A model generated the notes under the pieces. That model was not told the origin of the DNA, searched no databases, and worked only from the letters and a program-made list of their open reading frames with translations. DNA of 64,000 nt from Arthrobacter sunyaminii (GTDB taxonomy: Bacteria > Actinomycetota > Actinomycetes > Actinomycetales > Micrococcaceae), in contig NZ_CP076456.1 in the NCBI RefSeq assembly GCF_018866305.1, positions 3,844,001 through 3,908,000 of the forward strand, in the 5' to 3' direction. Both the position numbers and the translations under genes were made by a program. Below, in pieces: positions 57,430-64,000 of the stretch; positions within the stretch are counted from its first letter, which is position 1, and each line of letters starts with the position of its first letter.

Positions 57430-58626
57430 ATGCACCCGGCAGGAGAAACCCTGCGGAGAATGGACGCCGGCCGGCGTGTCAGGGCGCTTCGCGAAGCGCT
57501 GCTGAGCGCCGGCATCTCCATGTCCTATTTGGCTCCGGACTCCGTCAACAACCCCGATCTCTTTGACGATCACGTGGACGCCGCCGTCCGTTCCTTCCAG
57601 CAAAGCCGCGGGCTCATCGTGGACGGCGTGGCCGGACCCGACACCCTGCGTGCCCTGGCTGAAGCGCAGTTCCGCTTCGGGGACCGCGTCTTGGCCCTGG
57701 TCGAAGGCCAGCAGCCAATACGGGGCGATGACGTTGCAGAACTCCAGCGGCACCTCTCGCACCTGGGGTTCTACTACGGCCACATCGACGGCGAATTCAA
57801 CGTCCGTACCCGTTATGCCGTTGCCGAGCTGCAGAACAACCTTGGCATTCCCGGCACCGGCGTCTGCGACCAGGACACTATTCGAGCCATGGCCCGGGTT
57901 AACCGCGCCATCACGCCCAGCCAGGCATTTGCCCTGCGTGACTATGAGCGGCTGGACCGTTCCACCGCTGCGCTGCGCGGCCGTTTGATCGCCCTCAGCA
58001 CCGGAAGCTCCGAGCTGGCCTCGCCCCACGCCGTCGACCGGCTGACATCCCGGCCACTGACCGAAGCCATGGTTGCCGCCGACATCGGGCAGCGCGTGGA
58101 GCGTATTCTGCGCGAGTTCGGTGCCGGAGTTGTTTCCCGTGCCTCCGCCTTCGCCGGGGTGGACGGCGGCGGCGAGAGGGTCCCCAGCCTCAGCCTGGAT
58201 CTCCACTGTGACTGGCTGGACCAGCAGGCAGCTTCCGGAATCGCCGCCTTTTACTGGGGCTTGCCCGGAACCGGTGAAGCACGATCACCCATCGGTCACC
58301 GCGCCGCCATCCTGCTGATGAAGGAACTGGCCGCCCGGACCGGTATGGACAGCCTGGGCGTCCACGGCCGCACGTGGGACACCCTCAAACTCTCCGGAAT
58401 CCCCTCCGTCGGCCTGGACCTTGGTTACCTCAGCAACCGCGGCGACGCGGAACGGCTGGCAGATCCGGTTTTCCGGCAAACGGTGGCCGATTCCATCGTT
58501 ATCGGCATTCAGCGCCTCTACCTGCTCGAAGAAGAGGACCAGCCCACGGGCACCTTGGCTCTGGACGATGTGTTCCGTTTTAATCCGGCGGAAGTTCCGG
58601 AGGAACGGCGCGTAGCCGGACTCTAA
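57430..58626 (+). CDS. cwlM: CwlM-type protein: two PG-binding domains and degenerate amidase
   Basis: 398 residues: two PG_binding_1 domains (about 15-75 and 90-155) and a C-terminal N-acetylmuramoyl-L-alanine amidase (Amidase_3) fold from about 180. Key residues look lost: the usual D-x-GHGG zinc histidine is STGSS at about 190-194, and the catalytic Glu of VEL-GFLSN is D330 (LDLGYLSN); H259 of the SxHxN-like site remains. No signal peptide. In mycobacteria CwlM sits at this locus and regulates MurA rather than cleaving wall. An intracellular regulatory role fits. A second ATG 30 bases in is possible. Confidence 0.85.
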   Translation: MHPAGETLRRMDAGRRVRALREALLSAGISMSYLAPDSVNNPDLFDDHVDAAVRSFQQSRGLIVDGVAGPDTLRALAEAQFRFGDRVLALVEGQQPIRGDDVAELQRHLSHLGFYYGHIDGEFNVRTRYAVAELQNNLGIPGTGVCDQDTIRAMARVNRAITPSQAFALRDYERLDRSTAALRGRLIALSTGSSELASPHAVDRLTSRPLTEAMVAADIGQRVERILREFGAGVVSRASAFAGVDGGGERVPSLSLDLHCDWLDQQAASGIAAFYWGLPGTGEARSPIGHRAAILLMKELAARTGMDSLGVHGRTWDTLKLSGIPSVGLDLGYLSNRGDAERLADPVFRQTVADSIVIGIQRLYLLEEEDQPTGTLALDDVFRFNPAEVPEERRVAGL

Positions 58627-58690: not shown

Positions 58691-58792
58691 TAGGCGGCTA
58701 CTGGCAAGTGCCCGGCTTAGGAGGTGCCGGCTGTAGATCCCATAGTCGGTACCCATGCCGTTGCGAAGCCAACCAATTAACGCGTCGGCAGC

Positions 58793-59669
58793 GTGGTGAA
58801 AAGTATCCTCGCGAAAAGCCCCTGTTCGTTCGAACTGGACGTTGCAGTGGTGGGCATGGGCTACGTCGGGCTGCCGACTTCCCTGGCTTTCCGGAGGCCG
58901 TCTACCGGGTGATGGGGATCGACATCAACTCCCGCCGGCTGCAGGCCATTCAGGGCGCGCGTGCCGACCTGCTCGAAGGCGACCGCGACCGTTCGGACCG
59001 TGCGTTGGAGGACCCGGCGTTTGATCTGACGTGCGATCCGCCGCGGCTCTCCAGCGCCGCTGCTGTTGTCGTGGCCGTCCCCACGCCGGTCGACACATGT
59101 CTGGTGCCGGACTTTTCCATCCTGCGCAGCGCCTGCAGCACGGTGGTGGAACACGCCGTTCCGCGCCAGTTGCTCGTCCTGACGTCATCAACCTACGTGG
59201 GCAGCACCCGGGCTCTTTGTGGGCCCCCTGGCAACCCGCGGGTTGGATACAGGAAGGCACCTGCATGTGGCGTTCAGGCCGGAACGCATCAATCCGGACG
59301 TGGATGATTTCAGCCAGGAGGATGTCCCCCGGGCTGAACAAATACGTGCCCGCCGTGCATCTGGTGCCAGCGGCCGAGGCCGCGGAAATGACAAAGCTGC
59401 TGGAGAACACCTTCCGTGCCGTGGCTATCGCCCTGGCCAACAAGTTCGCCGATATCTGTGGGGCTCTGGGTATCCCGGTGATGGATGTCATCGACGCCGC
59501 AGACACCAAACCGTTCGGGTTCATGCGGTTCAATTCGGTGCCCGGGATGGGCGAGCACTGCATCCACACGCCGCACACCGACTTTGACGTGTCATGGCTG
59601 GCCTCGGTACCCGCCGTCCTGGACGCCGCCTACAGGCTTCCCGCAGGCCTCAACATCATTGCGCTGTGA
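58793..59669 (+). pseudogene. Nucleotide-sugar dehydrogenase (UGDH/WecC-like), broken
   Basis: Remnant of a UDP-sugar dehydrogenase. The N-terminal NAD motif DVAVVGMGYVGLPTSLAF is intact, but the frame shifts and stops at 58910-58912. Homology then resumes in another frame (VMGIDINSRRLQAIQ, PTPVDTCLVPDFS, LTSSTYVGSTR). A further frame carries the AFRPERI and QEDVPR segments, then a deletion leads to AEMTKLLENTFRAV and DVIDAADTKPFGF. The active-site cysteine region survives only as GMGEHCI. At least three lesions, so non-functional. The product would have made UDP-sugar acids for a polysaccharide. Confidence 0.8.
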
Positions 59670-59708
59670 TTCTCAGCCGCACCACTTCTTTGCAGGGAAT
59701 ACACCACC

Positions 59709-60112
59709 ATGAAAACAGCAGTAACGGCGGCGCCGGCTTTAACGGCAGCCATCTTTCTGAATACCTACTGGCCGCCGGCGACCACGTGACGGTTCTTGAT
59801 GATCTGTCCACCGGCTCCCTGGAAAACCTCCGCGGAGTGCTGGACCACCCCGGCATCCGCCTTGTCGAGGGAACCATTTTGGACCGGACCGCCGCTGAGA
59901 GTGTGATCGCCGGTGCGGACCGATTGTTCCATCTGGCCGCCGCCGTCGGCGTCATGCTCATTGTCGAAGACCCGCTCACAAGCCTGCGCCAATATCCAGG
60001 AACCGAAGTGGTGCTGGACGCCACCGTAGCTGCCGGTGAGTGCGGCTATTGCGTGGCTTTTCAACCGCCAATGGTGCTGCCGGAACCCCGGACGGTGGCC
60101 AGGATGGTCTCC
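59709..60112 (+). pseudogene. NAD-dependent sugar epimerase, truncated
   Basis: SDR-type epimerase/decarboxylase fragment. ATG 59709 begins MKTAVT; a one-base deletion at about 59723 shifts to GGAGFNGSHLSEYLLAAGD (the Rossmann motif, with I to N at one position), VTVLDDLSTGSLENL, LFHLAAAVGVMLIVEDPLTSLR and GTEVVLDA. The C-terminal catalytic Tyr-x3-Lys region is missing. It follows the dehydrogenase remnant in the same direction, as expected for a polysaccharide precursor operon. Confidence 0.75.
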
Positions 60113-60190
60113 TAGCCGTCGCGTGCCAACGTTTAGGAAGGAGGCTGAACCTGCCGCAGGTGGGCTGGTTGAGTTGGAGGGTCTTTGAAT

Positions 60191-61100
60191 ATGGGAACCA
60201 AGTCTGCTCGCCGACTGCCGTCGCACCGCAAACATAAACGGTCTCTGCAAACCTTTGCCGCTCTCCTGATGCTATCTCTTCCCATGGCCTTCCTGATCTT
60301 CGAGGCCTATGGCTGGCAGCGGCCGGCTGGGGTTCCCCGGACAACACATGTGCCGTCGCGGAAGCACAGCCCCTTCCGGCTTACATACCCTCCGAGTCGC
60401 TCCCCTTCGCCCCCCGGGCAAACGGTAGTGAGCCTGACGTTCGACGACGGGGTCAGCGGTGCGGCACGTGCGGCTGAAATCCTCAACGCCGTGGACATGA
60501 AGGGAACCTTCTACATGAAGTCAGGTTTGCTGGACGAAACCGGATTCATGGCCCTCCGGCAGGCCAAAGGCGTGGCCGGCCCATTGATGACGAATCCCTG
60601 CTCCATGAGTTTGTCGCCTGGCTGGCAATACGGGAAACCATCAGTCCGACTGTGGTCCTCTCCGTGCAGGAGGTGTTTGGCGGGCATTTGCTGGTCCCGG
60701 GCCGTTGCGGCAGCAACACCGCGGAGTTGACCAGGGCGCCGGGCCCGCGGGGAGGCACGGGTGGGCAGGTGTGACCGTGTGAGGCTATGAAAGCGGTGAT
60801 GCCAAACTGACACAGACGCAGGGTCTGGGTACGTTTTCCCCTGCCGTCCATCCTGGTCGCCGTTGCTTGTTGAGACTCTCCTGCACTGCCGATGTGCCAA
60901 CCCAGCTCAGTCTTTACTATCGGGCCAATTTGGGTGAATGGCAGAATGGACGGCCGGTCCCTTCTTGGAACCCTCCGAAGACTTCACTCCCACGGCATGG
61001 ACAACCCCTCCTGTTCCCGAAGGCGCAGCCGGCCTGACGTATGGTCCGTCATTGAGCGTCCGGGAGTCCTGCGGATGCGTCTACGGAGGGTGTGACGGAG
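60191..61100 (+). pseudogene. Polysaccharide deacetylase (NodB) with CBM-like C-terminus, broken
   Basis: ATG 60191 with GGAGGG upstream opens a basic N-terminus and a membrane/signal helix. It continues to the NodB motif VVSLTFDDGVSGAARAAEIL and MKGTFYMKSG, then loses frame and its core. The NodB C-terminal remnant (FVAWLAIRETISPTVVLSVQ) appears in another frame at about 60590-60680. A C-terminal carbohydrate-binding-like part is visible in two frames (TQLSLYYR at about 60900; AWTTPPVPEGAAGLTYG at about 60990). Several indels and deletions make it non-functional. Confidence 0.7.
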
Positions 61101-61164
61101 CGGTGATCGGCAATAGCTGCGAACCCGGGCTGCGGGCAGAAGACGAGGGTTGGTTGCATGGGTA

Positions 61165-61461
61165 TATGCTCCCCGCCGCGAAAATCGGTTCTGCCTTGAT
61201 CTCCCGTTCGACGACGTCAATGTTCCCCGGGCCTTCGCCATGCGGGGTTCCGTCGTCCCCTGGGCGGACGAGCCGGAATGCTACAGCCAGATCCATGACG
61301 CGGGACCGGCACTCTATGACGACGTCGCTTACGTTTTCGGGGATGACGACGTCCGTCCCGCCAATACCCTTCACAACGGTGCCGGCATGGACGTCTCGCC
61401 CGCTCTCAATGGCTGCCTGGGTTTTGAATCTCTGAACGCCGCCGACCGTGTGAGTCGGTAA
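61165..61461 (+). pseudogene. Fragment of a secreted protein with DVSPALNG motif
   Basis: One open stretch encodes DLPFDDVNVPRAFAMRGSVV, then WADEPE joined directly to IHDAGPALYDDVAYVFG and GAGMDVSPALNGCLGF. The blocks look like parts of a small secreted domain seen in actinobacterial polysaccharide loci, with an internal deletion and no start or signal peptide. Family assignment is from memory of similar sequences and is weak. Confidence 0.45.
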
Positions 61462-61593
61462 TTGCTGGACCAGACGCATGTTCCGGCCGACCCCTGGCGG
61501 GAGTCGTCACCGCCAGCCAGGTGCAGCATGAGTGAACCAGCAGCCACGCCGTCCGCAGTTCGAAGCTCATCTAAAAAGTCTTGGGGGGGGAAC

Positions 61594-62197
61594 GTGGAAC
61601 CATGCGCAATTCTGGTCATTGCACTGCTGATGCTGGGGATCGCCACTCCCCTATCGAGCACGGTAGGCCTGCTTCGCCGGATCGGGGAATTACATAACCC
61701 AAGCATCCCGAACCAGTTGGCCTGCCCACAGACATCACACTGTCTTCCTGAATCAGGTTGCCGTCCTGATAGCAGCACGCCATGAAGAACTCGTGATCGC
61801 GGAAACCATCGCCTCAGCCAAAGTGCTCATCCTTACCTCCAACCTTCACGTTGTTTCGGATGGTTCCACCGGCGCAACTTCGTTAATCGCTGAAGCCGAA
61901 GGGGTGAACTGTCTGGAACTGCATCCGAACCGGGGAAAGGCCAGTGCGCATGCCGCCGGAATTGGGTACTACGCTCTGGCGTCCATTTATGAGGGCATGC
62001 TCCTTCTCGATGCTGATACACGGTTGATGCCGGATTACGTCAAGACCAAGCTGCCTCGGTTCGCCGCATCTGACGTCGTCGCAGTCGCCGGCCGGGCGAA
62101 GTCCCTCCCTGCAGCGGATGCCGGAAACCAGTGGGTTGGGTTTTGCTCGCATGCCGGGAGCGCACTCAACAGCATTACTCAACGGGACCGGGAGTGA
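61594..62197 (+). pseudogene. GT2 polysaccharide synthase, truncated
   Basis: GTG 61594 behind a G-rich SD starts an N-terminal membrane helix (ILVIALLMLGIATPLSSTVGLLRRIGE). A frameshift near 61750 moves to QVAVLIAARHEELVIAET, VVSDGSTGATSLIAEAEGV, NRGKASAHAAGI and LLLDADTRLMPDYV with the DxD motif. The frame ends at 62197 before the Q-x-x-R-W motif and C-terminal helices. It resembles processive cellulose/hyaluronan-type synthases; together with the neighbouring remnants it defines a lost exopolysaccharide operon. Confidence 0.75.
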
Positions 62198-62511
62198 ACT
62201 GGATATCCCTCTCGGACTAACTCATCAGGTTCGTTGGCTTGCACACAAACAGCGGTACTACTCAGGTAGTTACTCGTGCACTGCATCGAAGTTACCTACG
62301 GACACCCCCACGAGATACGCCCGACGCATCCATTGACGATGGTCATCCATCCACGATGCCTCAGCACTCAGGCTAGCCAGGTCGCCGCTCGACTGAGGTG
62401 AAAGTGCCGCTACCACCGGTACCCGACGCCCGGCCACCGCCTTCAATATCGTGAAGACCGCAGTCCTCCGTAAACTCGACGGTTCACGGCCGGGCTCCCG
62501 CTGGGTGGCAG

Positions 62512-62527
62512 CGTTTCACGTGAACCA
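62512..62527. promoter_or_regulatory. parS-like site 1 (two mismatches)
   Basis: CGTTTCACGTGAACCA against the consensus TGTTTCACGTGAAACA; the TTTCACGTGAA core is intact. Weakest of the five. Confidence 0.6.
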
Positions 62528-62719
62528 AGGAACTGTGGTGGGGGTCGTCGAATCGCCATAGCTACGGCGGAGGACGGCGAGTGCACGTCGAAGTTCATCT
62601 AAACCGGTTGGAAGCGGCATGCAACACCTGGGTAGGACGGTGGCCGCGGACAACAATGGCATCTCCGGAATTCATAACGGACTCCTCGCGTGCGGCTACC
62701 TGGAGAGAAGCTCGACACT

Positions 62720-62735
62720 TGTTTCACGTGAAACA
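62720..62735. promoter_or_regulatory. parS site 2 (perfect)
   Basis: TGTTTCACGTGAAACA, the exact palindromic ParB-binding consensus shared by most bacteria. Confidence 0.93.
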
Positions 62736-63226
62736 GACATAGAGACCTAAGGGATTCGTCCCCTGGCAGGTGTTGAGCGGCGATGTCAGGACCGGGGACC
62801 GGGGACCGGAGCCGGCGACGAGTCAGATAGCCTGCCAGACCCCGGCCTTCAACCGGGCACGCGTCCGCGGCATACCAGCTGCACGTACACCGACAGGCCG
62901 GCGGACGGGGGCGATGAGTACCGTGAAAGACAGAGGCATGCATTCAAGTCGACGCGACCCCACCCAGACCGTACGCGGCCAGCCAGTGGGGTTTGGGGGC
63001 CTTCCGGCACGGCCGAGAGCAGAGGCACCCGCCAAGTGGAACCGTATCTCCACACCCCGTGGTCTACCGCTCCGGGATGATGCGCGCTGACAGTGTAGGA
63101 CGCCACTGGCGCACATTCTTCGGGGGTCACCGCCTACCAGGGTGTGCTGTTTCAAGGCCAGCAAGGAAACTGCGGCGTGTGCCGGCCGCGGATGGGGACG
63201 GGCGCCGTGGCACGGACAGTCCATGA

Positions 63227-63242
63227 CGTTTCACGTGAAACA
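63227..63242. promoter_or_regulatory. parS site 3 (one mismatch)
   Basis: CGTTTCACGTGAAACA; only the outermost base departs from the consensus. Confidence 0.88.
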
Positions 63243-63497
63243 GGAGGACCGTATGGCGTCCAGTAAAAATGGTGCGGGCCTTTATGTTAAATCGGGCGGT
63301 CCGCATTCGATCGGTCTCGGACATCCGCGCGAGCGGAACATAGGACGTCCACGGGGTAAGCAAGGTCTGCTTGTTGATACTCCGAACTGACAAGACACCT
63401 CCGGCTCGTGAGCCACGTACGATGCTATTCGGCGACCACGAACCGACCCGCATGTCGGTCATGCGTCACCCAGCAGCCAGAACTCACGTGGTCGTAA

Positions 63498-63513
63498 CGT
63501 TTCACGTGAAACA
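63498..63513. promoter_or_regulatory. parS site 4 (one mismatch)
   Basis: CGTTTCACGTGAAACA, identical to site 3 and about 271 bp from it. Confidence 0.88.
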
Positions 63514-63770
63514 CAAGAACGGACGGCTACTGACCTGGCTGTGGGCGACTACGGATTATGTCGGGAGCTGCGATCAAGCGCTCACGGACGACAGCCCATC
63601 TAACGTACTTCTGTTATTCGCGGTCTGTTCTCCAACCACACATGGCCTGAATCAGAGGTAGCCGCGAAGCGAAGACGGTTAATTGCCTATCCAGGAGCAG
63701 CACTACCCTGTGACCCTAACCCACGGAGCAAAGCGGATAAGTGGAGCCGACACAGCCGCACAAAAGACCA

Positions 63771-63786
63771 TGTTCCACGTGAAACA
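63771..63786. promoter_or_regulatory. parS site 5 (one mismatch)
   Basis: TGTTCCACGTGAAACA; one T to C change inside the left arm. Confidence 0.83.
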
Positions 63787-64000
63787 CAGGCGCCGGCACA
63801 TCCCCAACTCGTTAGGGCGAGAGGGCTGAGGCAGGGAGGCAACGAGCGACCAGGAGAACAGTTGGCTGTATAGCGCACTCAGAAACTGAATCATGCCGGT
63901 GTTCAGGACTGGCAGGCGGCAACCAGCCTTCTAGTCATCTCCAACCGATCCTGCGGCTCTTTGGGCCATGACTTGCTGCATGGAACAAGAGCTCTCCGTC

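Follow-up and report, generated by a model that had tools for sequence, protein, structure and literature searches.

Why should most of the parS sites of an Arthrobacter chromosome stand in DNA that holds no gene, beside the remains of a decayed gene cluster, and which part of such DNA is kept? The question is raised by the right-hand end of a 64-kb stretch of one genome (the window, C1:3844001–3908000 of a single contig of 3,914,265 bp). A sequence-only reading had noticed five parS sites there, in apparently non-coding DNA, and had taken the interval for a ParB-loading centromere of unusual position, kept for segregation.

The parS array near the origin

Scans were performed with the 16-bp palindrome TGTTTCACGTGAAACA as the parS consensus. 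The five sites at 62512–63786 were recovered (Table 1) and, as claimed, the window contained no further match even at three mismatches. The number expected by chance in the window was 0.11, and none of 100 shuffles gave five sites. In the whole 3.91-Mb contig, eight sites were found at up to two mismatches, all within C1:3906512–3910589 and 4.0–8.1 kb from the start of dnaA (the contig being taken as circular), with none far from the origin. Five are in the window, a sixth is in the same gap, and the last two are inside parB and parA; the array runs through the gap into the par genes, from which it had been thought absent. A third mismatch added four scattered matches across the genome (12 in total compared to 8 in a backwards control), and these four are at chance level.

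Table 1. Features of the parS array and its surroundings (window positions unless a contig or locus is given)
Feature	Position	Strand	Remarks
parS site	62512–62527	.	2 mismatches to TGTTTCACGTGAAACA; sequence CGTTTCACGTGAACCA
parS site	62720–62735	.	0 mismatches, perfect 16-bp palindrome
parS site	63227–63242	.	1 mismatch
parS site	63498–63513	.	1 mismatch
parS site	63771–63786	.	1 mismatch
parS site beyond window	C1:3908145		rest of the gene-free gap
parS site beyond window	C1:3909000		within parB
parS site beyond window	C1:3910574		within parA
Gene-free parS gap	62198–64000 in window	.	runs on to the parB stop; no called gene
parB	L013:8172–9476	-	stop 172 bp past window end
Family 2 glycosyltransferase fragment (pseudogene)	61793–62197	+	PF00535, 1.5e-5
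Polysaccharide deacetylase fragment (pseudogene)	60185–60730	+	PF01522, 7.5e-5, score at cut-off
NAD-dependent epimerase/dehydratase fragment (pseudogene)	59594–60115	+	PF01370, 1.9e-11; PF16363, 1.1e-11
UDP-glucose dehydrogenase remnants, two overlapping frames (pseudogene)	58708–59669	+	PF03721 in 58708–59307; PF00984 in 59031–59669
Intact N-acetylmuramoyl-L-alanine amidase with peptidoglycan-binding domains	57430–58626	+	past the variable slot

The gene order at the locus was rsmG-parA-parB. Past parA came rsmG, jag and yidC and then, across the contig end, dnaA (DnaA located at C1:340) and dnaN, an arrangement that we take to be the standard actinobacterial origin region. The ParA ATPase matched AAA_31 (6.4e-56) and ParB matched ParB_N (9.1e-35), HTH_ParB (1.1e-33) and ParB_C (2.9e-8) in Pfam. 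ParB scored 191.2 bits against TIGR00180 parB_part, above the cut-off of 58.45, and carried the CTP-clamp motifs GERRWRA at 227 (GERRxRA) and ENLHR at 261 (ENxxR). A Noc/NBS nucleoid-occlusion site was ruled out, the score against TIGR04285 (207.9 bits) being below the cut-off of 315. A plasmid or phage partition site was also ruled out: the locus is chromosomal and adjoins dnaA, and blastn of 62400–64000 (E 1e-5) found no match among 72,556 records of plasmids or among 50,697 of phages. The array, with its sites confined to the origin region, is almost certainly the origin-proximal chromosomal parABS centromere of an Arthrobacter-type actinobacterium, as the sequence-only reading had proposed.

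The gene-free gap across the genus

The full gap extends over 62198–64171 (about 1.97 kb) and abuts parB directly, the window edge cutting off its last part. Its non-coding nature was borne out. A hidden gene was rejected: nine open frames (one straddling the 62198 edge) gave nothing in Pfam at E 0.1, tblastn at E 1e-3 with 26 stop-to-stop frames of at least 50 aa gave no match to the fetched par loci, each about 15 kb long, of the other 28 genomes of the genus, and substitutions in the array showed no clear 3-base rhythm; parB was rhythmic in two pairs out of three, and in the remaining one there were only 12 differences to judge by. A structured RNA was rejected as well, with no Rfam match at gathering scores and no tRNA within the window. 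The GC content of the gap was 0.60 compared to 0.65 across window positions 1–57000. Four terminator-like sites were counted where 1.3 were expected, a weak excess; for promoter-like sites (0 compared to 0.6) the numbers were too small to inform.

The layout was compared in 29 genomes of the genus, the present one and G001–G028. All had one site in parA, one in parB, 843–882 bp before the parB stop, and 4–9 within 2.2 kb behind parB. Genome-wide, 263 of 265 sites fell in the fetched par loci (totals added by hand), the remaining two belonging, by subtraction, to G005. Gene calls were made with our own codon-score script, which is not a standard caller; by these calls every genome had its first gene 1746 bp or more behind parB (median 2872). 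This gene was convergent in 25 of the 29 genomes, as was the first strongly scoring gene in 28, and 196 of the 205 downstream sites came ahead of any called gene. The sites were evenly spaced, with a coefficient of variation of 0.38 compared to 0.78 expected at random and a median distance of 344 bp (150 gaps). Spacing was more even than the random median in all 29 genomes and below the 5% level in 14; the genomes are related, so these are not 29 independent tests.

To call the position unusual is only partly right: most sites do stand in the gap, which nevertheless abuts parB and has this layout throughout the genus, for which it is not unusual. Nor is an intergenic location exceptional. Corynebacterium glutamicum likewise has an actinobacterial parABS with parS of this 16-bp type near the origin and, in the available part of its description, 9 of its 10 sites are intergenic, in several intergenic regions within 35 kb and 73 kb from oriC (PMC7083940). 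Here, unlike in C. glutamicum, eight sites occupy 4.1 kb, 4–8 kb from dnaA, and six of them share one gap. The parS sites of Streptomyces coelicolor are spread over a much larger region. That species has 22 origin-near sites of the same family, more than here, according to the accessible part of PMC5815017.

We propose, with a probability of about 0.75, that the gap serves as a transcription-poor runway for ParB clamps, in which the sites and their spacing, and not the spacer sequence, would be under selection. Another explanation is that the gap is dead DNA, the genes behind parB dying repeatedly while the parS words survive in 2 kb that are themselves without function. The fragments at 58708–62197 are a decayed exopolysaccharide-type cluster that adjoins the gap, a gap of 4.3–4.4 kb reaches up to the amidase in G021, G018 and G009 (loci L125, L141 and L151), and the spacers drift like unconstrained DNA, all of which would suit such an origin. 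Dead DNA is expected to shrink by deletion, though, while the gap was never shorter than 1746 bp, with its 4–9 sites, in the 29 genomes and exceeded every other gap in the four regions compared. It is also present in G006 (L126), the one relative whose slot genes were checked by Pfam, where the same kind of array lies beside genes for a glycosyltransferase and a deacetylase, both full-length. The decay next door, real as the sequence-only reading had it, is therefore no precondition for the array, and we regard a functionless gap as rather unlikely. The slot between the gap and the amidase varies widely in length across the genus.

Fast-changing spacers between conserved sites

From the 406 pairs of genomes in the genus, ten were kept, the minimum being 0.70 for ungapped parB-tail identity and 0.55 for 4-fold identity. 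Of these, four were extended into the flanks (G027/G011, G008/G026, G014/G028 and G015/G014); the other six, with array alignabilities of 5–56%, were not. Two pairs from outside the ten were added, G002/G013 and the present genome with G021, its closest relative by ParB. Median 4-fold values were used because a handful of highly diverged genes seemed to have raised the mean for G008/G026 (0.075).

In G027/G011, whose flanks were mostly 98–100% identical, spacer divergence was 0.093 compared to a median 4-fold divergence of 0.019, and 1 of 125 genes was as diverged as the array. The corresponding values were 0.180 and 0.055 in G008/G026 (4 of 64 genes reaching the array value), 0.035 and 0.015 in G014/G028 (4 of 32), and 0.304, over the 43% alignable, and 0.111 in G015/G014 (0 of 32). 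Across these four collinear pairs, spacer divergence was 2.3–4.9 times the median 4-fold value. For the whole gap, in the same order of pairs, divergences of 0.074, 0.143, 0.042 and 0.274 compared with 0.020, 0.063, 0.012 and 0.067 in convergent intergenic DNA, a small control of 6, 8, 4 and 3 regions with 460–695 bp per pair; all other intergenic DNA gave 0.010, 0.028, 0.004 and 0.041 (62, 58, 20 and 21 regions).

The sites themselves hardly changed. Over five pairs (G014 used twice), 2 of 378 aligned bp differed in the inner 14 bp of parS compared to 1048 of 8677 spacer bp, a count restricted to aligned sites that were chosen by consensus in one genome per pair (Fisher p 6e-18, assuming independent bases). 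Both changes occurred in G002/G013. The site at +31 of G008 was deleted in G026.

The comparison of the present genome with G021 goes further. The flanks were about 83–97% identical per 500-bp bin and parB 77–84%, and no blastn match was found from +30 to about +5470 behind the parB stop. The six sites behind parB stood nevertheless at similar offsets: 12, 386, 659, 930, 1437 and 1645 in the present genome and 15, 375, 706, 1080, 1607 and 1804 in G021. Homology of the spacers could not be demonstrated: five of them gave z values of -0.5 to 2.8, compared to 29.3 and 4.0 in two control pairs. The closer pairs show that the turnover seen here is gradual. The interval had been said to be kept for segregation; the parS words and the gap are consistent with this, but the spacer sequence is not kept. 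In the same pair of genomes parB was the most diverged gene listed (4-fold divergence of 0.48 compared to 0.27 overall), so that the ParB gene is also fast-changing.

Could homologous recombination centred on the array, bringing in diverged alleles again and again, account for the divergence? In G002/G013 (L128/L137), parA and parB differed by 20%, the array by 10% and the downstream DNA by 2.5%; the border between parB and the array is probably a recombination junction, at which par alleles were swapped without the array. One 100-bp bin of G027/G011 held 30 differences. The four extended pairs, however, are close on both flanks and diverged in the array with the sites collinear, and in the three pairs inspected base by base the differences were spread over the array. 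Much the same picture was found in two further lineages, among 80 named related loci that partly overlap the 29 genomes (12 of the 80 being incomplete). These loci provided three close pairs, and two repeated the pattern of a fast array: L060/L061, with flanks mostly 92–98% and the array 68–83% identical, and L071/L073, compared without the downstream flank, with the upstream flank mostly 91–97% and the array 65–80% where alignable. The pattern was absent from the third, L079/L080, of Paeniglutamicibacter type with sparse sites. An origin by import appears improbable on this evidence.

The array could also be a local mutation hot spot, where untranscribed, origin-proximal DNA laden with ParB and SMC would be mutated or repaired differently. 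The excess over 4-fold sites points in this direction, as does an excess of about 2–5 times over convergent intergenic DNA, limited as that control is to 3–8 regions per pair, and in three pairs GC-neutral changes exceeded 4-fold sites by 4.5, 1.6 and 1.8 times. But the 4-fold sites (GC4 about 0.8, in a high-GC genome) are probably constrained themselves, as the short intergenic regions would be, and the GC content of 0.60 fits a released constraint. A special mutation spectrum was rejected, none being common to three pairs: a strand skew was seen in G014/G028 alone (CT 0.30 compared to AG 0.14, GT 0.24 compared to AC 0.09, about 70 changes). In G027/G011, moreover, divergence fell at +2100 to about +2600, where the DNA is still gene-free. 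We consider a hot spot to have little likelihood, and the same small chance is given to the wider proposition that altered mutation, repair or recombination makes centromere DNA loaded with ParB clamps and SMC turn over at more than the neutral rate. If it were true, few vertically inherited segments of the chromosome would change as fast as the centromere, its words and spacing being held by selection.

Suppressed indels were considered as a proof of selection on spacing and rejected, the indel to substitution ratio being about 0.07–0.10 in three pairs.

A model for the gap, and other lineages

In the established ParABS model, loading of ParB at parS is followed by CTP-dependent closure and by sliding. 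By analogy with known systems, ParB dimers would load at the eight palindromes 4–8 kb from dnaA, bind CTP, turn into sliding clamps and spread; ParA would move the ParB–parS complex and SMC would be loaded there. In the genus most sites stand in a gap, usually of 2–3 kb or more, that leads from parB to a usually convergent neighbour. Kept gene-free, this gap would let the clamps encounter few RNA polymerases, and a site every 340 bp or so between convergent genes would allow free loading and spreading. Selection would then hold the 14-bp core of parS, the presence of several sites and their roughly even spacing while the spacer letters drift, the spacers needing length and quiet and not a sequence.

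The available part of PMC7053999 indicates that DNA-bound TetR stops ParB spreading in vitro and that, in work it cites, DNA-binding proteins or RNA polymerase do so in vivo. On the other hand, two of the eight sites are inside genes (parB and parA), which counts against a runway. C. glutamicum achieves much of the function with a single parS (PMC7083940, in its accessible part), and the title of PMC4368675 states that in P. aeruginosa one site out of four is both necessary and sufficient, so that selection on the number and spacing of sites need not be strong.

A parS cluster as such is textbook knowledge. What is new and worth following is how fast the spacers change; among the matches listed, from open-licence papers, no report of fast parS spacer evolution was found. 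One genus offers a natural experiment in which the centromere words, their layout and rough spacing are held, the intervening DNA is replaced and the flanks are well conserved. It allows us to ask whether ParB spreading and SMC loading depend on a certain length of gene-free DNA, and whether DNA covered by ParB mutates faster; the array also offers a stretch of near-unconstrained DNA in high-GC genomes. A conserved function on fast-changing DNA recalls, as an analogy only, the fast-evolving eukaryotic centromeres. Satellites and CENP-A, features of those, are not known from the parS array, which, unlike them, is defined by a conserved sequence word.

Outside the genus set the layout varied. 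At least four sites within 2.3 kb behind parB were present in 32 of the 80 loci, 29 of these being among the 42 labelled Arthrobacter. In 22 of the 80, most of them from other genera (Nesterenkonia, Yaniella, Zhihengliuella and others), at least four sites lay within or close to the par genes, in the 5-kb stretch that ends at the parB stop. The gap layout is thus common in Arthrobacter-labelled genomes and not general in the family, of which a gene-free gap is not required. The related Micrococcales Nesterenkonia, Yaniella, Zhihengliuella and Kocuria share the palindrome and have multiple sites at the par locus, most of them, unlike here, before the parB stop.

In L060 and L061, which belong to another Arthrobacter lineage, the array reached as far as the amidase, over about 5.4 kb, and the majority of its sites had two mismatches to the consensus. 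Gene-like frames were called inside the array, a further point against the runway. Several site positions were unlike between these two genomes, which suggests gain or loss of sites.
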